From a virus: 21,370 bases of DNA. The position numbers and the translations under genes are program-made. Every line of letters starts with the position of its first letter. Position 1 is the first letter of the stretch. The notes under the pieces were generated by a model. That model did no database searches and had not been told where the DNA came from. It worked only from the letters and a program-made list of their open reading frames with translations. The stretch covers positions 1 through 21,370 of IMG/VR virus record IMGVR_UViG_3300035698_004403; one strand, 5' to 3'. Shown here piece after piece: positions 2,975 to 19,600 of the stretch.

Positions 2975-3167
2975 ATAGTTTGCTTTTTATGCATTTAGTT
3001 GAATCACCCGAGAAACACTGAGGTTTGAGTTTGAAGCCAAAATACCCCTTTTCGTTTTTCATAAACCCGTTTAATGGCCCAAATCTCCCAGCGGCTGAAC
3101 AGGGGGTGGTACGAAGGTAAACCATGGGGGAGACCCCCCGAAGGTCGGTCCATCTCTGACACATACG

Positions 3168-3305
3168 AATGAGAATCAGATTGAGAGTGCATATTAGAAT
3201 CATCCCAAGTTTGATAGCCAGTTGAGAGTGCGATGCAGTTGAGTTATCTGCTACTGATACCTGCCGATACCTGCCCGTGAGTATTCCATAGATGTAAATG
3301 AGAAT
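3168..3305. repeat. Cluster of short direct repeats (iteron-like)
   Basis: Three different short sequences each occur twice: AATGAGAAT at 3168-3176 and 3297-3305, TTGAGAGTGC at 3181-3190 and 3222-3231, and GATACCTGCC as a perfect tandem pair at 3256-3275. Such clustering in non-coding DNA is typical of protein-binding sites at origins or control regions. No binding protein can be named. Confidence 0.55.
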
Positions 3306-3332
3306 GATTCTTAGTCGCACCTTCTCATTATG

Positions 3333-3370
3333 TGTCTCAATATGTTACACTTGTCTCATAATGTTACACT
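3333..3370. repeat. 19-bp tandem direct repeat, two copies plus partial third
   Basis: TGTCTCAATATGTTACACT (3333-3351) is followed directly by TGTCTCATAATGTTACACT (3352-3370); the copies differ only by an AT/TA swap. A degenerate partial copy (TTCTCATTATGTG) lies just upstream at 3322-3334. The tandem phase of 19 bp is close to two DNA turns, which suits cooperative binding of a regulator or initiator on one face. The second copy runs into a TATAGAAT sequence that might be a -10. Confidence 0.7.
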
Positions 3371-3430
3371 ATAGAATGTACCTGCTCTTAAAATGATTAA
3401 TGTGAGACGCTAGTTTAGCGGCGTAATCCA

Positions 3431-3458
3431 TTGATATCATTGAATAATAAAATAATAT
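3431..3458 (+). promoter_or_regulatory. Possible sigma-70 promoter in AT-rich DNA
   Basis: TTGATA (3431-3436) matches the -35 consensus at five of six positions and is followed, after 16 bases, by TAATAT (3453-3458), a four of six match to the -10. The hexamers TGATAT (3432-3437) and ATATCA (3455-3460) are inverted repeats of each other. If real it would direct early plus-strand transcription into the structured region and the genes beyond. AT-richness alone could produce this match. Confidence 0.3.
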
Positions 3459-3595
3459 CATCTTCAGGCTTACACTTGGCACGCGGATTGCATAGTACTT
3501 AGTATCCCAACGCCATGATGGCACGGGGACCATAGGCATAGTGACAGGCGTCACAACTGCCCCTCCACTGGTGACCTTTTGAAAGGTGTAGACCC

Positions 3596-3820
3596 ATGGC
3601 AAGATTAGGCAAGAAAGAGCGTGCAACGTTAGTACGTTCACAGGAGGGGCGCAAGCCCCGCAACTTCTCTAATAAAGAAGTTAGCATACGATCATGCTTA
3701 GCTAATATGATACCGAGCGATAGACCTAGCGGTAAATCCCGCAGTTCTAAGACTTGGGGACATTCATACGCCAGATACTCAACTGGTAAGCTTGGCACGG
3801 GTAGTGTAGGCTCTAAATAA
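3596..3820 (+). CDS. Doubtful small basic ORF, 74 aa
   Basis: The frame opens with ATG after a fair ribosome site (AAAGGTG, 8 bases upstream) and would encode a very basic, Ser/Gly/Lys/Arg-rich protein (MARLGKKERATLVRSQEG at the start, GTGSVGSK at the end) without any recognised domain. Against it, the DNA inside the frame forms at least four consecutive hairpins (3625-3638, 3646-3659, 3662-3682, 3683-3698), which is unusual for coding sequence and fits the structured-RNA reading of the region. I give it as an alternative to that reading, not as an established gene. Confidence 0.3.
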   Translation: MARLGKKERATLVRSQEGRKPRNFSNKEVSIRSCLANMIPSDRPSGKSRSSKTWGHSYARYSTGKLGTGSVGSK

Positions 3821-4215
3821 CGCTAAAACAAACCATAGCTAATAGTTAACGCTGTTAGCCTTGGCTTGTCTTAGTTGACAAGGTACATTTTGACACTTTT
3901 GGTGATCCCTATGGCATGTAAAAAGGCTTAACAGCCTTTGATGTCGGAGATGTAAATCCAAACAGGCGGTATCATCCGCTTGTGAGTGCCCACAAGTGAA
4001 AGCTTGAAAGGGACTAGACCGGCATTGATCTACGGATTGGCGCCAGCCGCTACAGTCTTTCAGGGTTCAAAGGGTAAGCGTTGGGGCTTTAAGGAAAGCC
4101 TGTCAATGGTCCTGCGTTCTCTGTTAGTAGATTAGGCAAGGGAAGTGTCGATACATTTGATTTCGTTTCCACGAATGAGTTTTCTTCGTGCTCGGACCCT
4201 AACGAAAGGTACGAG
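3620..4215 (+). ncRNA. Hairpin-dense stretch, candidate structured RNA or long leader
   Basis: Local hairpins follow one another: AACGT/ACGTT (3625-3638), GGGGC with a GCAA tetraloop (3646-3659), AACTTCT/AGAAGTT (3662-3682), AGCAT/ATGCT (3683-3698), a GCTAA/TTAGC stem near 3836-3862 extended by CCA/TGG, CTTGTC/GACAAG just after it, AAAGGCT/AGCCTTT with a TAAC loop near 3922-3939, CTTGTG/CACAAG near 3979-3996, and GGCTTT/AAAGCC near 4085-4100. From 3821 to 4217 there is no credible reading frame. It may be the 5' leader of the gene at 4218 or an independent RNA. Strand is assumed from the downstream gene. The boundaries are approximate. Confidence 0.35.
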
Positions 4216-5514: not shown

Positions 5515-5928
5515 ATGAAGAAGCTAATGGGCATTGTTGCCTTGTGTATGCTGCCCTTGCTGGCTGCATGTGAGGATAATGCCACTATCGCATCGAAGAA
5601 CCTGTCTAAAGCTGCTGACAACTTCGAGATCGTTCGAAACATCGTCTTCTACAACGTGTGGACTGACGTTGAAGTAGCAACGGTCGTAGGGCGATGCTCT
5701 CTTGAAGTGGGATCGGCCAAGGTAGCTGTTATCTGCAAGGAAGGCAACGGCAAGTTCAAGAAGCACTACCTTGGACGTAGCGGTAATCTGTCGTTCTTTG
5801 CCATCCAGGTCGACTCTGCCGATGTATCCACGATGCACACACGCATCACTTGGAAGCCTCAGCAGTTCATTCCTGATGTCGACTTCAGGGGTAGTGTAAA
5901 AGAGCTTGCCCCTCGCGAGCAGCGATAA
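5515..5928 (+). CDS. Phage lipoprotein, 137 aa
   Basis: The N-terminus is a lipoprotein signal: Lys2-Lys3, a hydrophobic core at 4-17 and the lipobox LAAC with Cys19 as the lipidated residue, so the mature protein should be anchored in a membrane. The mature part holds NLSKAADNFEIVRNIVFYN (residues about 29-47), then a Cys-containing beta region (VGRCSLEVG, VAVICKEGNGKFKKHYLG) and QQFIPDVDFRG near the C-terminus. From memory this pattern matches a conserved protein of unknown function found in many siphophages of actinobacteria and proteobacteria; I cannot verify that here. The strong AGGAGG lies at 5495-5500, 14 bases before the ATG, which is a long spacing, and part of it can pair with CTAAG at 5414-5418, so translation may be controlled by leader structure. 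Confidence 0.75.
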   Translation: MKKLMGIVALCMLPLLAACEDNATIASKNLSKAADNFEIVRNIVFYNVWTDVEVATVVGRCSLEVGSAKVAVICKEGNGKFKKHYLGRSGNLSFFAIQVDSADVSTMHTRITWKPQQFIPDVDFRGSVKELAPREQR

Positions 5929-6443: not shown

Positions 6444-6520
6444 GCACCCGTAGCTCAGTTGGATAGAGCATGAGATTTCTAATCTCAGGGTCGCAAGTTC
6501 AAATCTTGCCGGGTGCACCA
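6444..6520 (+). tRNA. tRNA-Arg(UCU)
   Basis: A complete 77-nt cloverleaf with encoded CCA: acceptor GCACCCG (6444-6450) pairs with CGGGTGC (6510-6516), D arm GCTC/GAGC, anticodon stem TGAGA/TCTCA with loop TTTCTAA giving anticodon TCT (6478-6480), variable GGGTC, T arm GCAAG/CTTGC with loop TTCAAAT, discriminator A and CCA. It reads AGA (and AGG by wobble), codons that are frequent in the phage genes of this window. It lies in the early plus-strand operon between small genes. Confidence 0.97.
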
Positions 6521-7041: not shown

Positions 7042-7395
7042 ATGATAAGTACAGACAATATCACATTCGACCAAGTAAGACGCTGTTGCGGCGCATTTCA
7101 TATCTCAGGCTTTGCCATGGAAGACCAAGATGCATTGGATGAATTTGGAGTCCGCACAGTAAAGGAGTGGGTAGCCAAGGTTAGGGCTCACCTTGTCTAT
7201 CATATTAACCGTATGTCCAATCTTGCAATCTTCCAACTCTACCTCAACGAGTGTCAGAATGAGGTGTTCGGAGATGCGTTCGAGAGCATCGGTTTCAAAC
7301 TCGTATCACAGGGTTATAACAAGAATTCCAATTCTAAAAACTACCTGTACACCTTTGTGCGAGATCACAGGGCCGACCGCCCTCAGGTGACATAG
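7042..7395 (+). CDS. Hypothetical protein, 117 aa, first of a paralogous pair
   Basis: ATG 7042 follows AGAGGAA. The protein shares an ordered set of motifs with the product of the next gene: RCCGA near residue 14, a G-F-x-M/L-E motif, a helical middle, QLYLNECQ near 72-79, F-x-S-I-GF and GYNKNSNSK near 92-100 followed by a hydrophobic strand (NYLYTFVR). The pair therefore arose by tandem duplication. The end pattern, a conserved GF followed by N-x-NS and a short beta strand, recalls small acetyltransferase-like or recognition domains in phages, but no catalytic residues are certain. Function unknown. Confidence 0.75.
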   Translation: MISTDNITFDQVRRCCGAFHISGFAMEDQDALDEFGVRTVKEWVAKVRAHLVYHINRMSNLAIFQLYLNECQNEVFGDAFESIGFKLVSQGYNKNSNSKNYLYTFVRDHRADRPQVT

Positions 7396-7396
7396 T

Positions 7397-7855
7397 ATGC
7401 GGCCGATGCGGGGGTTGTTCGCCGTCGACGTGGCTGTGGATGAAGACTGGGAAGAAGAGAGGATGAGAAGGGAGGAAGAGGACGATATGGACGAAATGGG
7501 AATGGATGTAGATAACATCGAGGAACTAGAAGTAGAGCAATGCTGTGGAGCGACTCTACTTTGTGGATTCGGATTGGAGGAAGACCCCTTTAAATACAGA
7601 AATATCTCTAAGAAGAACGTAGAGAACTATGTGTCTGATGTGAAAGATCGGGTGTCTGCTCTTACAAACCGACTGTCCAATCCAGGTGTGGTTCAGCTCT
7701 ACCTCAACGAGTGTCAGAAGAAACACTTCGATAAGATGTTTCTATCTATTGGATTTGAGCAGGTTGCCTGGGGGTGTAATAAGAACTCCAATTCTAAGGT
7801 GTTTTTATATGCTTTCCAGAGAAAATCATGGGTAAAAAGGAAAAAGGCTGCATAA
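7397..7855 (+). CDS. Paralogue of the preceding gene with acidic N-terminal extension, 152 aa
   Basis: Residues about 48-145 match the upstream protein in motif order: EQCCGA, CGFGLEED, QLYLNECQ, FLSIGFEQVAWGCNKNSNSK, and FLYAFQR. The first 47 residues are new and strongly acidic (EDWEEERMRREEEDDMDEMG), resembling a DNA-mimic or protein-interaction tail. The basic end (KSWVKRKKAA) contrasts with it. The gene begins 1 base after the stop of the first copy. The extension may redirect the same domain to another partner; function unknown. Confidence 0.75.
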   Translation: MRPMRGLFAVDVAVDEDWEEERMRREEEDDMDEMGMDVDNIEELEVEQCCGATLLCGFGLEEDPFKYRNISKKNVENYVSDVKDRVSALTNRLSNPGVVQLYLNECQKKHFDKMFLSIGFEQVAWGCNKNSNSKVFLYAFQRKSWVKRKKAA

Positions 7856-8013: not shown

Positions 8014-8267
8014 TGCCTAAGAACTTCAGAGAAGGCTGCTTCGCTATTAACGGAGAGCGTTGTTGGGGTATGACAAAGGGTAAATTCACCGGCCCTTGCT
8101 CCAGCTGCTTGGATGAGACTGCCATTATGAATGCCAATCCCTACGATTATGGATGTTTTGGTGTAGAGAGTGTGTACGATTCAGACAAGGTGGATCGATA
8201 CAATACATCGGTAATTGAACTAGATGGCCTCACAGAGGCTCCTTTTTACTTCGACGGGAGCCTATGA
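8013..8267 (+). CDS. Small Cys-containing hypothetical protein, 84 aa
   Basis: Begins at the TAATG junction (8013) after GAGGA. It has six cysteines in the first 50 residues or so, including a C-x2-C pair in GPCSSCLDE, which may bind zinc together with Cys9, Cys17 or Cys48. Otherwise no domain is recognised; the C-terminal part is acidic and polar. It ends in an ATGA overlap with the cyclotransferase gene, so it may be expressed with the ligase operon although nothing shows that it takes part in it. Confidence 0.65.
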   Translation: MPKNFREGCFAINGERCWGMTKGKFTGPCSSCLDETAIMNANPYDYGCFGVESVYDSDKVDRYNTSVIELDGLTEAPFYFDGSL

Positions 8268-8647
8268 TGCACAGAGCATTCGTATACGGTAGCCTTAAAG
8301 AGGGGCTGGGCAACCACGGACTACTAGCCAAGTCCACATTAGAGGGTATTGATGCAATTAAGGGTGATTTCAAGATGGTTTCCCTAGGCGGATTCCCTGG
8401 TGTTCTTGAATCCATCGACTATGAAGAGGCATTGATCACTGTTGAAAGCTATAGAATCAACGATCAGACCTTGGCCTCTTTGGACTCGTTAGAAAGTGAG
8501 GGGGACTTCTATCATAGGCTCCCATTCACCTCAGAGCAGGGCCGTGAGGGCTTTATGTACATTCTGGACGATAGGTACGCTCTAATAGACTACGAGCTGG
8601 CGGGCAACTTTAAGACCGATACAGGGCTAACTGCATATGAGTGGTAA
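8264..8647 (+). CDS. Gamma-glutamylcyclotransferase-like protein (AIG2/GGCT family)
   Basis: Proteins of this family release a gamma-glutamyl group as 5-oxoproline, from gamma-glutamyl amino acids or from gamma-glutamyl amines on proteins. The signature is present: VYGSLKEG (residues 7-14) forms the substrate-binding loop, GGFPGV (42-47) follows, and LDSLES (73-78) contains Glu77 at the place of the catalytic acid, with FYHR (82-85) after it. The length of 127 aa is normal. It is the first recognisable enzyme of the amide-ligase operon and overlaps its neighbours on both sides (4 and 11 bases). In this setting it probably trims or edits the product of the ligases, or acts on a gamma-glutamyl intermediate; the substrate is unknown. 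Confidence 0.85.
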   Translation: MMHRAFVYGSLKEGLGNHGLLAKSTLEGIDAIKGDFKMVSLGGFPGVLESIDYEEALITVESYRINDQTLASLDSLESEGDFYHRLPFTSEQGREGFMYILDDRYALIDYELAGNFKTDTGLTAYEW

Positions 8648-9425
8648 AGAAGAGGCCCAAGCGGCGACTAAGCCTTACGTTACAGAGGCTAGTCTACTGA
8701 GTCTTAGCCCTTATGTCAAATATGTCCTTATAGGAGAGAAGGGGGCGGTTAATATATCAGGAGGGGCAGTTTGCTTCTCTCAGCTAGGAGGAACCGAATT
8801 TAATGCCACGGATGGCTATGTTCCGTGCTGTACCGAAGAGGTTTTAAGTATTAAGCCGATTAAGTACTTGGCTTTTAGTTGTCGAAAGTACATGAAGCTA
8901 GAGTATAAAGACTATATTCGCTGGGTAGTAGATGAGTCTTTCTACTCTCGTGCCTTCCTTTCCTCTTTTCAGGAGTGCTGGGAAGAAGGCATAGCCTATA
9001 TGAACATAGGAGAGACTGCTCAAATAGTGGTGGGAGCTATGGCTTTGCTCCGTTCCATTTTCGAGCACCAAAGCTGTATTGATCTTTGGAATGAAGGGAT
9101 GGGACACGGCCTTGGTGAGGATAAGTCTCTTGTTTATGCTTTCTCTTTCCAAGAAAACTTTCCTATGGCCCGATATAATATAAACCACTCTCCTGTTGAT
9201 TTCCGAGATGAACAAACGGTAAGGAGCTTCTTGACCGGAGTTCCTATGTCTATGAATAAGGTTAGCTTTGCCGATAATTCAGGATACAAGGGTTTTGTAA
9301 GTATGTTTAGAAATACAGGAAAGAAGGGAAACCCTAGTAGCAAGAGAGTAGAAAACCAGCTCGGAGATGGTAGTGCTTCCCCACGAAACGATTACTTCAT
9401 TAACTGGCTGAAGGAGCTGAAATGA
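8637..9425 (+). CDS. Unrecognised protein of the amide-ligase operon, 262 aa
   Basis: This gene lies between the cyclotransferase and the class I amidotransferase-like gene, overlapping them by 11 and 4 bases, so it is made with them. The protein is soluble. Visible features are a beta-like start (YVKYVLIGEKGAVNISGGAV), a Cys pair (VPCCTEE), a helical centre (FQECWEEGIAYMNIGETAQ, then IVVGAMALLRSIFEH) and a basic, Ser/Asn/Gly-rich tail (FRNTGKKGNPSSKRVENQ). His and Glu residues around WNEGMGHGLGED could be part of an active or metal site, but there is no known motif. I cannot assign a family. Given its place it may be the substrate, the acceptor, or an additional enzyme of the pathway. Confidence 0.75.
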   Translation: MSGKEEAQAATKPYVTEASLLSLSPYVKYVLIGEKGAVNISGGAVCFSQLGGTEFNATDGYVPCCTEEVLSIKPIKYLAFSCRKYMKLEYKDYIRWVVDESFYSRAFLSSFQECWEEGIAYMNIGETAQIVVGAMALLRSIFEHQSCIDLWNEGMGHGLGEDKSLVYAFSFQENFPMARYNINHSPVDFRDEQTVRSFLTGVPMSMNKVSFADNSGYKGFVSMFRNTGKKGNPSSKRVENQLGDGSASPRNDYFINWLKELK

Positions 9426-10051
9426 AACGTAACTACTTCATACTGCCCCCTACTTACGGGTACATAGCGATGTGCGAAAGTGAGAACTGGGAGAGAGTTG
9501 ATGCAGTCAAGGATGCAGAGATAATCATATTCACAGGAGGGGCTGATGTACATCCTGATCTATATAATCATGGCCTGCACGCCAAGACCAACTTCGACAA
9601 GGAACGGGATGCCAAGGAGCAGAAGTTCTTTGAAATAGCATTGGCAAACAACATTGCTATGGTTGGAATCTGTAGAGGTGCTCAGTTCCTAAATGTTATG
9701 AGTGGAGGGGAGATGTTTCAGCATGTAGATGGACATGGTAGCAACGGTACCCACACTGCCTTCGATACGCACTCAGGTGATGAGTTCCAAGTCACCTCCA
9801 CCCATCACCAGATGATGAAACCCTCTCGTCTAGGCTTAGTACTCGCGACCGCCCGTGAGAGTACCTTTCGTGAGGAATGTGTCTCAGAGGGCAAGACTAA
9901 CCGCCAGATATCTAACATATATCAGGATACCGAGGTGGTATACTACACCGAGACTAACTGCTTGTGCTTCCAACCGCACCCGGAGTTCCTTGGTCACGAC
10001 GATATGACTTCACGCTTCTTCGATTATGTCGAAGAATACAACTTCAAGTAG
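9422..10051 (+). CDS. Class I glutamine amidotransferase-like hydrolase (peptidase C26 type)
   Basis: The family cleaves gamma-glutamyl bonds (gamma-glutamyl hydrolase, gamma-glutamyl-GABA hydrolase) or transfers glutamine ammonia. Motifs in order: FTGGADVHPDLYNH (37-50), the D-x-E-R-D-x-x-E region (59-66), the nucleophile elbow GICRGAQFLNV (82-92) with Cys84, an STHHQM motif (126-131), and FQPHPEF (183-189) with His186 and Glu188 completing the triad. All three catalytic residues are present, so it should be active. The arrangement FTGGxDxxP and DxxRD is that of the C26 hydrolases rather than of ammonia-channelling subunits. In the operon it would remove gamma-glutamyl groups or serve as a second editing enzyme. 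ATGA overlap upstream; the next gene starts 11 bases after it. Confidence 0.88.
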   Translation: MKRNYFILPPTYGYIAMCESENWERVDAVKDAEIIIFTGGADVHPDLYNHGLHAKTNFDKERDAKEQKFFEIALANNIAMVGICRGAQFLNVMSGGEMFQHVDGHGSNGTHTAFDTHSGDEFQVTSTHHQMMKPSRLGLVLATARESTFREECVSEGKTNRQISNIYQDTEVVYYTETNCLCFQPHPEFLGHDDMTSRFFDYVEEYNFK

Positions 10052-10061
10052 GATCTAATAC

Positions 10062-11270
10062 ATGTGCGGACTAGTAGGGTTTATCGGACCCGCAATCTCC
10101 AAGAATGATGACATCTTTGCTGACCTACTGTTCCTCGATACGGTGAGAGGAAAGGACAGCACTGGTGTTACCTGTGTTGCCGTTGATGGATCAACTACCT
10201 CCTTCAAGGCACTCGGCCTTCCTGATAACCTGTTCCAAGACAAGGACTTTCGTAAAGCCCTTCTGCGACAGAACAATATCGTAATGGGTCACAATCGATT
10301 TGCTACAAAAGGGAATGTAAACGAAGCCAACGCTCATCCCTTCACCCACGGTCGGATCACCGGGATGCACAACGGAACCCTTGTTGGTGACTGGCGGCTG
10401 GATAATTATCAGGACTTCGATACAGATAGTGAGGCTATCATGTATAACATCGCGAAAGATGGTATCGAAGAGACATATAAGAAGATTGAAGGGGCGGCAG
10501 CCCTCTCCTACTATGACGATGAGGAACAGACACTAAACCTCATCACCAATGGTAGACGACCTCTGTACTTAGCCACCCTTAAGGATCGTCCCGGCATGTT
10601 CTATGCCTCCGAACAGTGGATGCTAAACGCTGCTATCACTCGTAATGAGATCGCTGTGAATATGTATTATCGTCCCAACCCTCACTTCCTTTTCTCTTAT
10701 AAATGGGAAGATCAGCGAGTCAAGTCTTGGAGCAGGGAGCTGTCCCCTTTCGTGCACGGCGAGTACAGCAAAAACCACTCTCGGCACGTCTATCAGAATG
10801 GCTCTGGCCAAGGGAATCACGGCGTGAACCAAGCAGCTAGCATCAGAGAGCTGGAGCTGAAACGAAAGGTAGACTTGGCGAAGGCAACGGCTGATAAGAC
10901 GGAGGAGAAGAAGGCAAAAAAGGAAATCGAGGGGGCAAAAGGAAACGAAAGCGTAACGGTAAACGCAAGTAGTGATGAAGCCACTGCTCTCTTGGAAGCC
11001 TCTCGTGATGCCATTGATAATGTAATACCTTTCGATATAGATGATGGATTGGAGGGGTGGGGTGTTAATTCTCGCCTCTATAAGCTACACGATGGCACCT
11101 TGGTAAGTAAGCAGCAGCTTGAAAACCAATACCCCCACTGTTGCTTCTGCCACAGCGAATTAGACTTCGATGTAGATGAAGTAGTAGTATACGACGAAGA
11201 GAACGCAGGCTGTCAGGAGTGTAACCGACAGTCTGCGATTTTTCAAATCCCTTTTCACACATTGCACTAG
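10062..11270 (+). CDS. Class II glutamine amidotransferase (Ntn hydrolase) with C-terminal zinc ribbon
   Basis: The N-terminal domain hydrolyses glutamine to glutamate and ammonia. Cys2 (MCGLVGFIG) becomes the N-terminal nucleophile after removal of Met1; GHNRFATKG (76-84), MHNGTL (102-107) and DTDSEA (120-125) are the usual glutamine-binding and oxyanion motifs. The domain ends near residue 200. There is no synthetase or isomerase domain behind it as in GlmS, PurF or AsnB. Instead there is a charged coiled-coil-like linker (about 255-297) and a zinc-ribbon-like end with Cys360/361, Cys363, Cys384 and Cys387. The ammonia would therefore be passed to a separate enzyme, most likely the ligases encoded next. 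The two-part design suggests that the tail docks to a partner or substrate. Confidence 0.88.
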   Translation: MCGLVGFIGPAISKNDDIFADLLFLDTVRGKDSTGVTCVAVDGSTTSFKALGLPDNLFQDKDFRKALLRQNNIVMGHNRFATKGNVNEANAHPFTHGRITGMHNGTLVGDWRLDNYQDFDTDSEAIMYNIAKDGIEETYKKIEGAAALSYYDDEEQTLNLITNGRRPLYLATLKDRPGMFYASEQWMLNAAITRNEIAVNMYYRPNPHFLFSYKWEDQRVKSWSRELSPFVHGEYSKNHSRHVYQNGSGQGNHGVNQAASIRELELKRKVDLAKATADKTEEKKAKKEIEGAKGNESVTVNASSDEATALLEASRDAIDNVIPFDIDDGLEGWGVNSRLYKLHDGTLVSKQQLENQYPHCCFCHSELDFDVDEVVVYDEENAGCQECNRQSAIFQIPFHTLH

Positions 11271-11279
11271 GAAACCGAG

Positions 11280-12113
11280 ATGAATCTTACTATTGGAGCT
11301 GACCCAGAGCTTTTCGTCAGAGGAGCAGAAGGCTATGTTTCAGCACACGGAATGATACCTGGGGATAAGATCAACCCCCACCCTGTTAAGTCAGGAGCTG
11401 TACAGGTTGATGGCATGGCGCTTGAGTTCAACATCGATCCAGCTAACACCTTCAATCAGTTCACGAGCAATATCAACCACGTTCTCTCTGACCTTCGGAA
11501 GATGGTCCCTAAGGAGTATGATATGGTTGCTGTACCAGCAGTTACCTTCTCCGATGAGGTGATGGCTTCTACCCCAAAGGAAGCGTTGATACTTGGTTGT
11601 GATCCTGATTTCAACGCTTACACCGAGAGTCAGAACGGTAAGCCGGAACCTTCAAAGGGACTCCGTACAGCAGCCGGTCACATCCACCTAGGATGGGGCG
11701 AGTTCAATGTAAACTCTGAAGAACACTGGAACAATTGTGTTGGCTTGGTCAAGGTGTTGGATAGGCTGCTTGGTGTGTGGTCTCTGACTGTCGATGAAGA
11801 CCATACCCGTAGGTGTCTATACGGCAAGGCCGGCGCCTTCCGTGTTAAGCCGTATGGTCTAGAGTACCGTGTTCTCTCTAATTTCTGGGTGTTTGATATA
11901 GAACATCGGGCGACTGTATGGGACCTGTGTAAGAGCGCCTTCGATTGGTGGCAGAAGGAATTTAGTCCTGATAAGCGTATTATGGACGAACACGGTTTCC
12001 GCCTGCACTCGGCACAAGAGATGATTGACAGTGGGAGCACCAAACGAGCAAGGTCAGAGTGGCCTTACTTATCTCTGGCTGTTGACAGAGTACGTAATGG
12101 GGATTGGGTATGA
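11280..12113 (+). CDS. phiEco32-type COOH-NH2 ligase (amidoligase, glutamine-synthetase-like fold)
   Basis: ATP-dependent ligase joining a carboxylate to an amine or ammonia. The family motifs are visible: IGADPELFV (5-13) with the metal-binding acid, QVDGMALEFNI (42-52), AAGHIHLGW (131-139) with His134 and His136, RRCLYGKAGAFRVKPYG (177-193) and LEYRVLSNFW (194-203) with the Arg used for nucleotide or phosphate binding. The 277-residue length agrees with phage members. The family is known from phage phiEco32 and relatives by comparative genomics, where it occurs with a class II amidotransferase and ATP-grasp protein as here. The acceptor and product are unknown. ATGA overlap with the following gene. 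Confidence 0.87.
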   Translation: MNLTIGADPELFVRGAEGYVSAHGMIPGDKINPHPVKSGAVQVDGMALEFNIDPANTFNQFTSNINHVLSDLRKMVPKEYDMVAVPAVTFSDEVMASTPKEALILGCDPDFNAYTESQNGKPEPSKGLRTAAGHIHLGWGEFNVNSEEHWNNCVGLVKVLDRLLGVWSLTVDEDHTRRCLYGKAGAFRVKPYGLEYRVLSNFWVFDIEHRATVWDLCKSAFDWWQKEFSPDKRIMDEHGFRLHSAQEMIDSGSTKRARSEWPYLSLAVDRVRNGDWV

Positions 12114-12727
12114 GAGATAACTACTATGACCTTGAACAAGCCAAGATGAGGCTCCAAGGTGGTGTAATTCAATACAATGGGACATATGTGTATGTAACCA
12201 GAGTGGAAAGAGAAGGTGGAGAGTACTCCATTCAATATGAACGACTTCAGAAAGATGTAGGCTACAGTGGAAGAGGCGATAGCTGGACAACTCTGGATAC
12301 CAACCTGATAGACACTGGTAACATGCAGTTAGGTTTCTCAACTGGGCCAGATACTCCTAGATACCTTATGCGTACACCTACTAGACAGTGGAAGGAAGGG
12401 CTGGCCTTTGATAACATGTGTTTTACTCAGCCGGGTAGTAATAGTGCTTATGTAAATCGCGGGGTACCAAGAGATACCTTGTCTGGACGAGTACTACTTC
12501 CCATCTTTGAGAATAACTATCCCAGCTTTGATGAGGTGAAAAAAGAAGCAACCCAAGCAAAGGAAAGTTCTTGGTTCCCCTTCGATAGGAACTATGCCTT
12601 GAGTGGTGGTGGAGATATCAACTACAAGGGAGTTTGTAATGTGGGAATTGTCAAGGGCGAACAAGTTGTATTGAAGGACGAGTACTTGTTCCTTCAGGAA
12701 TCTTTACAGGAGATAGGCGTTGTTTAG
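12110..12727 (+). CDS. Unrecognised protein between the two amidoligases, 205 aa
   Basis: I use ATG 12110, which overlaps the previous stop as ATGA; an in-frame TTG at 12104 would add two residues and is less likely. The protein opens with a helix followed by beta strands (YYDLEQAKMRLQGGVIQYNG, then TYVYVTRVEREGGEY), a pattern I associate with conserved phage proteins next to amidoligases, but I cannot name the family. The middle is rich in Gly, Thr, Arg and aromatic residues (TPRYLMRTPTRQWKEGL), and the end is acidic. No catalytic motif is evident. It may be a substrate-binding or scaffold component of the ligase system. It overlaps the next gene by 8 bases. Confidence 0.75.
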   Translation: MRDNYYDLEQAKMRLQGGVIQYNGTYVYVTRVEREGGEYSIQYERLQKDVGYSGRGDSWTTLDTNLIDTGNMQLGFSTGPDTPRYLMRTPTRQWKEGLAFDNMCFTQPGSNSAYVNRGVPRDTLSGRVLLPIFENNYPSFDEVKKEATQAKESSWFPFDRNYALSGGGDINYKGVCNVGIVKGEQVVLKDEYLFLQESLQEIGVV

Positions 12728-13835
12728 GAATACCATCGCGGATTACTACGGATACGGTATTACAAAGGGAGAGGTTGGTATTGAAATAGAGATGGAAGGC
12801 GATCATCTTCCCGTCCGTTTCGAAGATTCCAACGCTTGGACAGGCACTCGGGATGGCTCTTTACGAGGAGAGTCTATGGAATATGTGCTTAAAACCCCTG
12901 TTGTTAGATCTTCTGTTGCAAAAGTTCTAAAGAACTTGGAAGAACGGTTCGACAGGGCAGGGTCTGTCCTCCGACCTTCGGATAGATGTGGGGTTCACAT
13001 ACACCTTAATATGCAGGAGCTTACTGTAATACAGGTGATCAATACTATCATCATCTACCTTATGTTTGAGGACATCTTGGTTAGATGGCACGGTGAAGAT
13101 CGGGAGGGAAACCTATTCTGCCTTAGAGCCTCCGATGCTGAAGCTAACATAATGATATTGCAGGAAGCCATCCGAACTGGGCAGCTTAGCTTCGGTAACG
13201 ATGTGAGGTATGGCTCCCTAAATCTAGCAGCTCTATCTAAGTTTGGATCACTTGAGTTCCGTGCCATGCGTACCCAGCGTGACTTAGGAATGGTTAAGAC
13301 ATGGGCTGAGATGCTTTTGGCTATCAAGGATGCCGCTGTTAAGTTTGAGTATCCTTGTGATATCATTTCCTCTTTGTCTGGTCAAGGGGCTTCCGGTTTC
13401 TTCCGTGATGTTATGGGAAGACAGTCGGATGTCCTTGAGTTCAGAGGGTTCGAGGATACAATCCAAAATGCAATGCGTAGAGTGCAGCACTTGGCTATGA
13501 TGCGTGAGTACAAGCAGGAGGTTAAAAAGAAGTCTCTTAGAAAAAAGCCTATGCACGAAATTGATCGTCCAGCGGAGGTGCCAATAGTTCCCGAGGATCT
13601 GGTCTGGAATCCTGCCGCTAACAGATTTGAAGCTATCTCACATTGGGCGGATATGGCCCCAGCAGCTCCTCCTCCTAGAGAACCATATGTCGTGGGGCGA
13701 CTAGCCCAGAACGCAGATCAGATGAGACAGGCCCAAATCATGCCGTATTTGGGCCAAATTGTAGAGCTAATAGGGGAAGATATGCCTGAATACGATGACT
13801 ACGATGATGATGAGTTTGATGAGGAGGATGTATGA
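12720..13835 (+). CDS. Second amidoligase (Amidoligase_2 type), 371 aa
   Basis: Starts at TTG 12720, placed 7 bases after AGGAG (12708-12712); no ATG fits as well. The core carries the amidoligase motifs: VGIEIEMEG (19-27) with metal-binding Glu22 and Glu24, GTRDGSL (42-48), MEYVLKTP (53-60), CGVHIHLN (90-97) with His93 and His95, and RYGSLNLAALSKFGSLEFRA (163-182) with Glu179 and Arg181. It belongs to the glutamine-synthetase-like amide-bond formers. After about residue 270 there is a Pro/Ala-rich region and a strongly acidic tail (EYDDYDDDEFDEEDV, 357-371), possibly for docking. Having two different amidoligases plus an ATP-grasp ligase in one operon suggests at least two successive ligations. 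ATGA overlap with the next gene. Confidence 0.87.
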   Translation: MFRNTIADYYGYGITKGEVGIEIEMEGDHLPVRFEDSNAWTGTRDGSLRGESMEYVLKTPVVRSSVAKVLKNLEERFDRAGSVLRPSDRCGVHIHLNMQELTVIQVINTIIIYLMFEDILVRWHGEDREGNLFCLRASDAEANIMILQEAIRTGQLSFGNDVRYGSLNLAALSKFGSLEFRAMRTQRDLGMVKTWAEMLLAIKDAAVKFEYPCDIISSLSGQGASGFFRDVMGRQSDVLEFRGFEDTIQNAMRRVQHLAMMREYKQEVKKKSLRKKPMHEIDRPAEVPIVPEDLVWNPAANRFEAISHWADMAPAAPPPREPYVVGRLAQNADQMRQAQIMPYLGQIVELIGEDMPEYDDYDDDEFDEEDV

Positions 13836-14584
13836 AGAACGTAAAGCTATACTCTTACAACCCAGTATCTAATGCGGGAAGGGAGTTGGCTAGCGGGCTA
13901 GGTATCAAACGTGTAATGCATGAGGGATCTAAGTTCGTAGCTAAGCCACGGAATACGGTAATCAACTGGGGTGCTTCCACCCTGCCGGTTGCCTTGTTAG
14001 GTGGGAAGCTCTTGAACCCGCCAGAGGAGGTGGGCAAATGCTCTAATAAGCTGATGTTCTTCAACTTACTCAAGGACACAGAGCTTACTCCCAAGTTTAC
14101 TACAAGCCAAGACACAGCCATTGAATGGTGTCGGGAGGGCAAGGTTGTAGTTTGTCGACAGAAACTAACAGGCCATTCGGGGGAGGGCATTGTTATTGCT
14201 GAAACAGAGCAGGACATTGTTCCCTCTCCCTTGTATGTATTGTATGTTAAGAAGAAGGATGAGTATAGGGTTCATGTATTCAATGGTAAGTCCATCGATG
14301 TCCAGCGTAAAGCTCGTCGACTGGACTGCGAAGAACCTAACTGGCGTGTCCGTAACTACGACAATGGTTTCATATACGCTAGGGATGGGCTAGTTGCCCC
14401 CTCGTCTGTAACAGAGGTGGCTGTTAAAGCCATGGGTAAGACTAAGCTTAACTTCGGGGCAGTAGATGTGCTGTTCAACGATAAGAAAGACAGGGCTGTA
14501 GTGTTGGAAGTTAACACTGCACCTGGTCTTGTCGGAACTACACTAACCAATTACATAGGAGCATTCAGAGAATTCCTATCTTAA
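13832..14584 (+). CDS. ATP-grasp ligase, RimK-like, 250 aa
   Basis: ATP-grasp enzymes activate a carboxylate as acyl phosphate and join it to an amine, often adding amino acids to peptides or protein ends. The motifs are in order: VINWGAS (43-49), NKLMFFNLLK (72-81) with Lys73, VVCRQKLTGHSGEGIVIA (106-123) as the ATP lid with the Gly-rich loop, YVKKKDEYRVHVFNGK (138-153), FGAVDVLFN (208-216) with Asp212, and VVLEVNTAPGL (223-233) with Glu226 and Asn228 for magnesium. The length is short but complete for phage members. It is the last gene of the operon, followed by a 114-base control region. It probably acts on the same substrate as the amidoligases. Confidence 0.9.
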   Translation: MKNVKLYSYNPVSNAGRELASGLGIKRVMHEGSKFVAKPRNTVINWGASTLPVALLGGKLLNPPEEVGKCSNKLMFFNLLKDTELTPKFTTSQDTAIEWCREGKVVVCRQKLTGHSGEGIVIAETEQDIVPSPLYVLYVKKKDEYRVHVFNGKSIDVQRKARRLDCEEPNWRVRNYDNGFIYARDGLVAPSSVTEVAVKAMGKTKLNFGAVDVLFNDKKDRAVVLEVNTAPGLVGTTLTNYIGAFREFLS

Positions 14585-14614
14585 TCCCCTATTATATATA
14601 CTAGGATTGTATGG

Positions 14615-14679
14615 AATAGTTTACTAAATAAATAATATATCTTTTGTAAACTATTTCTCCTAACTTCGGTATACTTAAT
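14615..14679 (+). promoter_or_regulatory. Promoter-like element before the replication genes
   Basis: TTTGTAAACTATTT (14643-14656), then CTCCTAACTTCGG, then TATACT (14670-14675) repeats the element found at 2941 and 18874, with TAAACT 17 bases before the -10. A perfect 10-bp inverted copy of its upstream part lies 21 bases away (AATAGTTTAC at 14615-14624 and GTAAACTATT at 14646-14655), suitable for a looping or cooperative binding site. The intergenic region is AT-rich and holds no gene. Transcription would begin about 15 bases before the primase-helicase gene. Confidence 0.6.
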
Positions 14680-16357: not shown

Positions 16358-16483
16358 TGTTTGATACACTATTCGATGCAGTGACACGACCCATCCGACT
16401 TAGTAGTTCGAGAATACAAAGAAGATGGTAAGTTGTTTGCTGAAACACGTAACAGTTTGTATGAGATAAGGGAGAATGAATGA
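16357..16483 (+). CDS. Small phage gene split between two frames (+1 shift)
   Basis: ATG 16357 lies in a TAATG overlap with the primase stop and reads MFDTLFDAVTRPIRL, then continues SSSRIQRRW to a stop at 16429. One base further along, the +1 frame reads VVREYKEDGKLFAETRNSLY and EIRENE and ends at 16481-16483 in an ATGA overlap with the sigma factor gene. Joined after CTT (skipping A at 16402) the product is a 41-residue protein of the kind common in phage replication operons. Both operon junctions fit only if the two parts belong together. Either there is a programmed +1 shift at CTT-A, or a one-base insertion, or a sequence error. Confidence 0.5.
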
Positions 16484-16977
16484 CCCAAAACGAAGCCTAT
16501 AGAGAGATTGAGGCACACTACCGAGCGAGCAGAGAGAGCCTAGTGGGGCAACTCACCCGAGCCTGCGGTAGTAAGGCAGAAGCAGAGGACACAGTACAGG
16601 AGGCTTACGCTAGGGCCTGCCAGTATTGGTACTCCCTTAAGCCAGGGGAGAGTGTGGGAGGTTGGATCTATGGCATACTTCAGAACTGCACTAAGGATAC
16701 ATGGCGGGACTCCATCAACAACGGGATGAGTACTGACCTACGAGAGAGTGACATCCCTCGTATTGATATGGCAGGTGAATATAACATCCAGCTTCAGGAG
16801 GTTAAGGTTATGATCTCTGAGGAGAAGGCGTCTGCCCAACGTATCCTTAACTACCACCTGTTCGATGCCTTGACAGGGCCAGAGATTGAGCAGCTTGTAC
16901 CTGATAATCGTCAGATGATATGGCGTATCATTAGGGAGTTTAAACAAAGGATAGAGAGTACCTATGGAAGTAAGTAA
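16480..16977 (+). CDS. Phage RNA polymerase sigma factor, ECF type
   Basis: A 165-residue sigma-70-family protein with regions 2 and 4 only. Region 2 spans about 8-77 and includes the typical AEAEDTVQEAYARACQYW (33-50) and GGWIYGILQNCTKDTWRD (60-77), where core polymerase binding and -10 recognition reside. Region 4 lies at about 118-160 (LFDALTGPEIEQLVPDNR, then QMIWRIIREFKQRIE), a helix-turn-helix for the -35. It would redirect host RNA polymerase to phage promoters; phage phiEco32 uses a sigma factor in this way and also carries related ligase genes. The best candidates for its sites are the three similar elements at 2941, 14643 and 18874. ATGA overlap upstream. Confidence 0.82.
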   Translation: MTQNEAYREIEAHYRASRESLVGQLTRACGSKAEAEDTVQEAYARACQYWYSLKPGESVGGWIYGILQNCTKDTWRDSINNGMSTDLRESDIPRIDMAGEYNIQLQEVKVMISEEKASAQRILNYHLFDALTGPEIEQLVPDNRQMIWRIIREFKQRIESTYGSK

Positions 16978-18873: not shown

Positions 18874-18910
18874 TTTGTAAACTATTTGCTCTAACTCTGG
18901 TATATATAAT
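18874..18910 (+). promoter_or_regulatory. Promoter-like element before the SSB gene
   Basis: TTTGTAAACTATTT (18874-18887), then GCTCTAACTCTGG, then TATATATAAT, the third copy of the element seen at 2941 and 14643. It begins directly after the DNA polymerase stop codon, and the ribosome site AGGAGG follows at once (18911-18916), so a transcript from it would have almost no leader before the Shine-Dalgarno sequence. That could mean use as an operator or an unusually short leader. Confidence 0.6.
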
Positions 18911-18925
18911 AGGAGGTTATTTTTT

Positions 18926-19600
18926 ATGCCGTTGAATACTAACAAAGTCGCTGGTTCTGATGGACCTAAAGTTGATCCGCTTGATAATGGATCGTACCCT
19001 GGACGAGTCGCAGCAATTATCGATCTTGGATTGCAGCCTCAGCGTCCTTACGAGGGTGAAGCTAAGCCTAGCAAGGAAGAGGTTATGCTTTCATATGAAC
19101 TATCCGATGAGTTCATGCCTGGTGAGGATGGCGAAGAGGATGAGAGCCGACCGCGTATGCTCTCTGAACGGTTCGTTGTTTACAGCCTGAAGTCAGAGAA
19201 GGCTAAGTCTACAGCTAGGTACAAGGCCATCGACCCCGACAATGAGAAGGGTGGTGACTTCGGCCAGTTGATTGAGATGCCTGTTAACATTACCATTGTG
19301 CAGAACCCCAAGGGTGAACGCATCTATGAGAATGTAGCAGGGCTTACACCAATGCGGCCGAAGGAGAAGGAGAAGCTTACTGGGCTGGTTAATCCCCCTC
19401 GTGTCTTTGACTTGGGTGATCCAGACCTTGAGGTGTTCCTTCATCTCTACCCCTGGCAGCAGGAGATCATTCGGTCCAACCTGAACTTCCAAGGTAGTCC
19501 TCTTCAGAAGCTACTGGAGAAGGACCCGGACTACAAAGACCCGGACTTCTCGGCACCGGCTGAGAAGGATGATGACTATGATGAGGACAACCCCTACTAA
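18926..19600 (+). CDS. Single-stranded DNA-binding protein, phage type
   Basis: A 224-residue protein that I recognise as the phage SSB-like family found beside DNA polymerase in podovirus-like genomes: an N-terminal beta segment (NGSYPGRVAAIIDLGLQPQR near 22-41), an acidic loop, LSERFVVYSLKSEKAKST in the middle, PVNITIVQNPKG (near 119-130) and a proline-rich later part with the motif NPPRVFDLGDPDLEVF. The C-terminus is a short acidic tail ending in an aromatic residue (EKDDDYDEDNPY), as in T7 gp2.5 and bacterial SSB, used to bind the polymerase and helicase. AGGAGG lies 9 bases before the ATG. It ends in a TAATG overlap. Confidence 0.8.
   Translation: MPLNTNKVAGSDGPKVDPLDNGSYPGRVAAIIDLGLQPQRPYEGEAKPSKEEVMLSYELSDEFMPGEDGEEDESRPRMLSERFVVYSLKSEKAKSTARYKAIDPDNEKGGDFGQLIEMPVNITIVQNPKGERIYENVAGLTPMRPKEKEKLTGLVNPPRVFDLGDPDLEVFLHLYPWQQEIIRSNLNFQGSPLQKLLEKDPDYKDPDFSAPAEKDDDYDEDNPY

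Follow-up and report, generated by a model that had tools for sequence, protein, structure and literature searches.

In a 21,370-base sequence from an uncultivated podovirus (the complete IMG/VR record IMGVR_UViG_3300035698_004403, hereafter the window), a cassette of eight genes, g1 to g8, begins at position 8264 and ends at 14584. Judged from their sequences, its products comprise three ATP-dependent carboxylate-amine ligases, one amidotransferase and two gamma-glutamyl-cleaving enzymes, all with intact catalytic residues. We tentatively propose that together they could form a gamma-glutamyl-capped amide-assembly pathway expressed early in infection. The cassette itself is already known; the present analysis contributes a defined core, two further members and one proposed chemical rule. 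It occupies more than 6 kb, and its carriers number in the hundreds among sequenced phages, with hosts in Pseudomonas, Escherichia, Vibrio, Aeromonas and other genera. With the core of g4 to g8, the retained gamma-glutamyl cleavage and the addition of g2 and g6, what had been a vague guess (peptidoglycan, protein or metabolite) narrows to a few reactions that can be tested in phages that grow readily, among them LUZ24 and relatives of PA11 and phiEco32. Should the product prove to be a new modification, it would account for a frequent but neglected feature of early phage infection. The genes are as follows.

8264..8647, + strand: g1, GGACT cyclotransferase-like protein (GGACT/YtfP/BtrG fold; gamma-glutamylamine), from PF06094 and PDB 1xhs
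8637..9425, + strand: g2, member of a very divergent cassette family, from a profile of proteins encoded upstream of the C26 gene
9422..10051, + strand: g3, Peptidase_C26 class I glutamine amidotransferase-like gamma-glutamyl hydrolase, from PF07722
10062..11270, + strand: g4, class II glutamine amidotransferase domain with a C-terminal zinc-ribbon-like segment, from PF13522
11280..12113, + strand: g5, phiEco32-like COOH-NH2 ligase type 2 (a glutamine-synthetase-like amidoligase), from PF14395 and phrog_3815
12110..12727, + strand (reading frame opening with TTG at 12104): g6, core protein of no recognised family, from its position between g5 and g7 and its AlphaFold2 model
12720..13835, + strand: g7, Amidoligase_2, a second glutamine-synthetase-like amidoligase with a TTG start, from PF12224 and phrog_7469
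13832..14584, + strand: g8, ATP-grasp amino-acid ligase, RimK/MptN-like, from phrog_2599, MptN and a solved-ligase profile match

Adjacent genes overlap by 4-11 nucleotides (nt) or are separated by gaps of 9-10 nt, and for g6 the ATG at 12110 is the more likely start, giving a 4-nt ATGA overlap with g5. Mis-called reading frames and chance were ruled out, as all eight genes have homologues with conserved residues; tens of divergent phages carry this gene set too, which puts the cassette far beyond chance. A first-pass annotation of the window had described an eight-gene operon encoding six recognisable enzyme families with all key catalytic residues apparently present. The operon-like packing is borne out by the coordinates, the six families by Pfam and PHROG (for g8 by phrog_2599, MptN and the solved-ligase profile), and the catalytic residues by their conservation in the window proteins and across 18-34 homologues, depending on the family.

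Co-occurrence of the cassette genes

Loci were gathered by similarity to g5 (viral contigs, and phage records including those that matched most weakly) and independently by similarity to g8. They were then scanned with iterated profiles for each of the eight families, and the counts given here refer to the 42 loci with a complete core, gene absences being judged within the fetched flanks. A tblastn search with g5 alone returned 317 phage records. The genes g4, g5, g7 and g8 were found together in 42/42 loci; g5 and g8 were the selection criteria, and the informative co-occurrence is therefore that of g4 and g7. We detected g6 in 41 of the 42, nearly always between g5 and g7. The exception is the crAss-like phage cr108_1 (L035, 8688-15744; Crassvirales), whose cassette encodes ATP-grasp, C26, COOH-NH2 ligase, class II amidotransferase and Amidoligase_2 proteins, lacks g6 and contains two unnamed genes of 329 and 300 amino acids (aa). 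The first-pass annotation had named scattered homologues or missing catalytic residues as findings that would overturn it; we found the homologues to co-occur and the residues to be kept.

The other genes are less constant, with g3 in 33/42 loci, g2 in 27/42 and g1 in at least 24/42. Absences of g1 (18/42) and of g3 (9/42) never coincide (0/42; P of 0.003 if the two were independent, kinship being ignored), so that every locus encodes a gamma-glutamyl-cleaving enzyme (GGACT, C26 or both) and the window encodes the two. Thus, the cassette appears to require gamma-glutamyl cleavage, a task in which g1 and g3 seem able to replace each other in part.

The gene order of the window, g1-g2-g3-g4-g5-g6-g7-g8, was also seen in L007, L018, L019 (where g7 is split into two reading frames), L021, L030, L032, L033 and L034, and the arrangement of the cassette and its flanking genes in Pseudomonas phage O4 and phage KZY1-k141_1938105 is like that in the window. 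The nearest homologues of g5 belong to Zobellviridae and similar phages at less than 60% identity (tblastn), and the window is a new uncultivated, Zobellviridae-like carrier of the known cassette. A single operon there encodes PF14395 together with PF12224, and the class II amidotransferase together with the ATP-grasp ligase. Outside the 42-locus set, a contig from a Rickettsiales metagenome-assembled genome (L052) carries g3, g5, g4 and a g7-like gene; g6 and g8 are not in its fetched flank. A PADLOC scan of the eight window proteins gave no match to known anti-phage defence, which rules out a known defence or anti-defence system.

The encoded proteins

Both glutamine-synthetase-like amidoligases score above their Pfam gathering cut-offs. 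g5 matched COOH-NH2_lig PF14395 at 6.6e-8 (32.5 bits against a cut-off of 25) and phrog_3815 at 1.5e-77, while g7 matched Amidoligase_2 PF12224 at 7.9e-10 (39.5 bits against 22) and phrog_7469 at 6e-72. Residues E10, E49, H134, H136, E195 and R197 of g5 are kept in 33/33 sequences, and E22, E24, E26, E54, H93 and H95 of g7 in 34/34, with E179 and R181 in 33/34. A profile search for solved relatives of g5 and g7 returned none.

The third ligase, g8, gave only sub-threshold ATP-grasp matches in Pfam (R2K_2 at 1.5e-4, RimK at 1.4e-3). It scored 22.1 bits against a cut-off of 26.2 for the R2K clade 2 ATP-grasp family PF18299, 35.3 bits (7.5e-9) against a cut-off of 143.4 for the RimK-family alpha-L-glutamate ligase TIGR00768, and 7e-11 with MptN, under the curated cut-off. 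It matched phrog_2599 at 2e-80, and the profile of the phage family matched solved alpha-L-glutamate ligases at 3.7e-12. On these scores g8 belongs to the same superfamily as the TIGR00768 ligases and is not a member of that family; its nearest enzymes are those adding glutamate to a carboxylate. K73, R109, E144, R146, K160, D212, E226 and N228 are each kept in 34/34 or 33/34 sequences. No plasmid-borne relatives of g8 were found.

As for the cleaving enzymes, g1 matched GGACT PF06094 at 1.4e-14 and YtfP (PDB 1xhs) at 1.2e-7, the Y8, G9 and L11 of its YGxL motif together with D74 and E77 are invariant in 18 sequences, and a RefSeq note calls the homologue in phage tf 'BtrG-like'. g3 is a Peptidase C26 member (Peptidase_C26 PF07722, 2.7e-20, 73.5 bits against a cut-off of 20.5) with the triad C84, H186 and E188 kept in 29/29 sequences. 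Its best NCBIfam matches are gamma-glutamyl-CDP-amidate hydrolase (4e-8) and then PuuD (9e-5); with 33.5 bits against a cut-off of 250 it falls outside the former family, NF045546.

The amidotransferase g4 matched GATase_6 PF13522 at 1.8e-15, is PurF/GlmS-like and gave a weak EgtC match (1e-4). C2 (the nucleophile), R79, T82, N104, G105 and D122 are conserved, and the zinc-ribbon-like C terminus has the pattern CxxC...CxxC, with CxxC pairs in most homologues. The first-pass annotation called g4 ammonia-releasing, which is plausible from its residues but not settled, since these would equally suit gamma-glutamyl hydrolysis of the EgtC/Dug3 type.

That annotation had left g2 and g6 as merely unrecognised. 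Neither has a Pfam match, as it stated, but profile and position place both in the cassette, with g6 as a near-invariant family, and both assignments are new here. A tblastn search of phages with g2 gave no match; a profile built from 11 proteins encoded directly 5' of the C26 gene recovered it at 3e-12, and the family was recovered independently in g8-selected loci (L026, L030-L034). Across its 27 loci, with a mean identity of 15% to the window protein (27 sequences), C46 and R139 are kept in 27/27, S101 in 25/27, E143 in 24/27 and H184 in 23/27. g2 is a fast-evolving cassette member and probably an enzyme, because invariant C46 and R139 and a near-invariant H184 are the pattern expected at a catalytic site. 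Its AlphaFold2 model is mediocre (predicted local distance difference test [pLDDT] 72) and had no match in the PDB.

The model of g6 is good (pLDDT 88.9), with an N-terminal SH3/tudor/KOW-like small barrel and a C-terminal domain. Against the PDB nothing significant was found beyond the SH3/tudor-type resemblance of the barrel, and no known relatives of the C-terminal domain were seen. In the viral library, significant matches were uncharacterised phage proteins only, the identifiable ones including those of the cassette phages CW02 and Vp_R1. Conserved residues are few (G77, R94, G99 and G181) and not active-site-like, and we infer that g6 is a scaffold or substrate-binding subunit.

A proposed gamma-glutamyl route and its alternatives

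Three kinds of enzyme in the cassette recognise gamma-glutamyl groups, namely the cyclotransferase, the C26 hydrolase and the class II amidotransferase. The cyclotransferase mechanism works only where the alpha-amine of the gamma-linked glutamate is free, and it liberates 5-oxoproline. This requirement argues that the substrate is a gamma-glutamyl cap rather than an internal peptidoglycan residue, whose D-Glu amine is acylated, and together with the g1-or-g3 rule it points to capped intermediates. The named families closest to g3 are hydrolases that strip gamma-glutamate from assembled intermediates, which supports removal of a cap, and the invariance of the ligases indicates that the main task is synthesis and not scavenging.

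In the pathway that we tentatively favour, g5 or g7 would couple glutamate, through its gamma-carboxyl, to an amine or a carrier. The second amidoligase, g8 by amino-acid addition of the RimK/MptN type, and g4 by providing ammonia or a gamma-glutamyl donor from glutamine would elaborate the capped intermediate, from which g1 (by 5-oxoproline release), g3 (by hydrolysis) or both would take the cap off. g6 would be non-catalytic, holding the complex or its substrate, and g2 would be a further cysteine-dependent enzyme. The product would be a small peptide or amide, or the decoration of a conserved host molecule. The logic would be that of PuuA/PuuD (gamma-glutamyl-putrescine), BtrJ/BtrG (butirosin) and gamma-glutamyl-CDP-amidate processing (Campylobacter capsule), in which a gamma-glutamyl group is placed on an intermediate, or borne by it, and then removed. 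There, as is proposed for the cassette, a C26 hydrolase or a GGACT-type cyclotransferase strips the group; those pathways have one ligase each, whereas the phage cassette has three, together with an amidotransferase, g2 and g6.

Several points weigh against this reading. To our knowledge, no cassette member has a demonstrated substrate, nor does any enzyme of PF14395 or PF12224, and we know of no gamma-glutamyl system that combines three ligases with an amidotransferase. g8 passes no curated ATP-grasp cut-off and falls far below the named families, and the two best NCBIfam matches of g3 both lie far under theirs. The rule that g1 and g3 are never both absent is statistically modest, the lineages being related. 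Furthermore, g1 and g3 could recycle glutamate or degrade host glutathione independently of the ligases.

Kuravirus SU10 has its cassette homologues within a region of genes assigned to the early class, and an amplified, concentrated SU10 preparation analysed by mass spectrometry yielded six peptides of the ATP-grasp protein, nine of the amidotransferase and two of the cyclotransferase (PMC4281155). A 23.3 kDa protein, numbered 86 in that paper, was also detected; SU10_087, the g6 homologue, has the same mass, 23.3 kDa. In the window, a 30-bp element, GTAAACTATTTnnnCTAACTnnnGTATACT, is present in three copies (0 expected):

2942-2971, - strand: copy preceding the terminase operon
14646-14675, + strand: copy preceding the primase/helicase gene, at the downstream boundary of the cassette
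18877-18906, + strand: copy preceding the gene at 18926

Near 14595-14624 there is also a degenerate copy in the divergent orientation (- strand). The element is a candidate promoter for the phage sigma factor encoded at 16480-16977. No copy precedes the cassette, which fits early transcription by the host polymerase. A promoter scan of the cassette identified none, promoter-like matches being no more frequent than in shuffled sequence, and no exact copy of the first 20 bp of the element occurs in 67 fetched loci.

Polyamines might be the capped amine in the proposed pathway; the yeast two-hybrid interaction of LUZ24 gp9 with the host gamma-glutamylpolyamine synthetase SpuB/PauA2, which was not confirmed (PMC4635203), is only a hint. 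Rather more doubtful is the idea that the product belongs to a new class, an amide or peptide that the three ligases and the amidotransferase assemble on a host molecule or carrier by a gamma-glutamyl route, with g6 holding the substrate and g2 representing a new cysteine-enzyme family with a fold not seen before. If true, the chemistry of this phage strategy would be without a described parallel, and the strategy would be widespread, because the cassette spans Zobellviridae, kuraviruses, LUZ24-like phages and a crAss-like phage.

The first-pass annotation had offered a modified host protein, a cell-envelope change, a metabolite or defence evasion as roles; at the level of sequence these are guesses. 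Envelope modification, in which the ligases would give peptidoglycan stem peptides unusual new links, the gamma-glutamyl enzymes would cleave those already there and the altered cell would exclude superinfecting phages, has been published as a proposal for phiEco32-type and RIO-1-like phages (PMC5498523, PMC10580990). The D-glutamate of the stem peptide is gamma-linked, peptidoglycan precursors are present in all hosts seen, and the ATP-grasp fold is common to RimK and D-Ala-D-Ala ligases. However, L-Ala acylates the D-Glu amine of an intact stem peptide, hence the cyclotransferase could not act there. No cassette gene is Mur ligase-like, no N-terminal signal peptide or membrane segment was seen by eye in the eight window proteins, and the named hosts of the phage matches are Gram-negative genera, with receptors outside peptidoglycan. 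We consider this explanation unlikely.

An equally unlikely explanation is that the cassette glutamylates, or tags with another aminoacyl group, a host ribosomal protein, translation factor or RNA polymerase for host takeover. The closest relatives of g8 are RimK and other alpha-L-glutamate ligases, such a role was proposed for phage R2K ATP-grasps by Aravind and colleagues (PMC4431377), and SU10 has the cassette among its early genes (PMC4281155). Nevertheless, RimK needs no amidotransferase or cyclotransferase partner, a protein tag has no obvious need for two gamma-glutamyl-cleaving enzymes, and the window cassette encodes no conserved small substrate protein. A search of the cassette for a Pup-like small substrate or one resembling a ribosomally synthesized and post-translationally modified peptide found no small reading frame that the loci share and that the window also has.

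Breakdown of glutamine, glutathione and gamma-glutamyl compounds to supply nitrogen or amino acids for phage synthesis would suit g1, g3 and g4, each of which recognises gamma-glutamyl, and a cassette that precedes replication genes; it is improbable, for the ATP-consuming ligases, a cost and not a yield, are the invariant part and the cleaving enzymes the variable one. Some phages couple amino acids or amines to thymine, and cassettes adjoin replication genes. Even so, base hypermodification shielding the phage genome from host nucleases is hardly credible, given that LUZ24 has the cassette and no annotated thymidylate-synthase-like, hydroxymethylase or base-modification gene, and that phage tf DNA was a substrate for HaeIII and for standard ligase (PMC3517423).

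Related systems and genome setting

The first-pass annotation had linked the genes to phiEco32-type systems, a link upheld by the shared gene set (PMC5498523), and had implied scant documentation, which does not hold, since a closely matching description exists for RIO-1-like phages. This is the seven-gene 'peptidoglycan modification cassette' of RIO-1/PSA-HP1, made up of the same enzymes (PMC5498523, citing Hardies 2013), with phiEco32, 7-11, PA11, tf, MR299-2, LUZ24, PaP3 and CW02 as further carriers. Like the window, RIO-1/PSA-HP1 encode a gamma-glutamyl cyclotransferase, a glutamine amidotransferase, a gamma-glutamyl amidoligase, a second amidoligase and an ATP-grasp protein, among DNA metabolism genes; the text names 5 of the 7 genes, and the g2 and g6 families are defined in the present analysis. 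The peptidoglycan function proposed there is, for the cyclotransferase, chemically weak. OM43 phages of Zobellviridae have an amidoligase and an amidotransferase, and the superinfection idea is repeated for them (PMC10580990). The earlier statement that no product had been shown agrees with both papers and with our literature search, which found no report of an experimental cassette product or peptidoglycan-modifying activity.

Phages of the phiEco32/LUZ24 type (Kuravirus, Bruynoghevirus, tf, Grimontviridae) share with the window the g5-g6-g7 block, class II amidotransferase, ATP-grasp protein and cyclotransferase, but have the order g5-g6-g7-g4-g8-g1 and no C26 hydrolase (g3). They also have, unlike the window, a conserved gene for a small protein (about 70-120 aa) immediately 5' of the one for the ATP-grasp protein. 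In L004, L005, L037, L038, L041 and L042 this position is held by a small protein of 69-118 aa with the core LDNPVVVRKVPMT...IPFPV.IH, which was seen only in LUZ24/kuravirus/Grimontviridae-type cassettes.

A cellular module on chromosomes of Ignavibacteria and relatives (L058, L060-L065) resembles the cassette in keeping the g5 and g4 families close together. It encodes a COOH-NH2 ligase, a separate CxxC-rich zinc-finger-like protein and a class II amidotransferase, and its fetched flanks contain no second amidoligase, ATP-grasp, g2, g6 or gamma-glutamyl-cleaving gene. The Cys-rich protein may correspond to the zinc ribbon of g4, and the three-gene module is possibly the cellular ancestor or a minimal form of the cassette.

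To the left of the cassette, the minus strand encodes the terminase small subunit and virion genes. To the right, the plus strand encodes a primase/helicase (14699), the sigma factor (16480-16977), a PolA-type DNA polymerase (16984) and an exonuclease; a position directly 5' of primase/helicase and DNA polymerase genes, in the early or replication half, is a mark of this cassette type. Between the divergent operons, about 1.2 kb (approximately 2980-4210) holds no convincing gene and gave zero matches in an Rfam scan; it includes a 19-bp tandem repeat at 3333-3370. The lipoprotein-like gene at 5515-5928 (+ strand) matched Pfam Phage_VG64, a family named from mycobacteriophage, and its PHROG label 'recombination directionality factor' looks doubtful. 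A tRNA-Arg (TCT) gene lies 5' of the cassette at 6444-6520 (+ strand), and a TCT or CCT tRNA-Arg lies near it in several other loci; a linkage was dropped, as most loci have none nearby. Finally, the genes at 7042-7395 and 7397-7855 (+ strand) are adjacent paralogues of an unnamed family with the pattern CCG...LYLNECQ...NKNSNSK...LY.F, relatives of which adjoin the cyclotransferase gene in L018, L026 and L029 and lie elsewhere in L021, L025 and L028.

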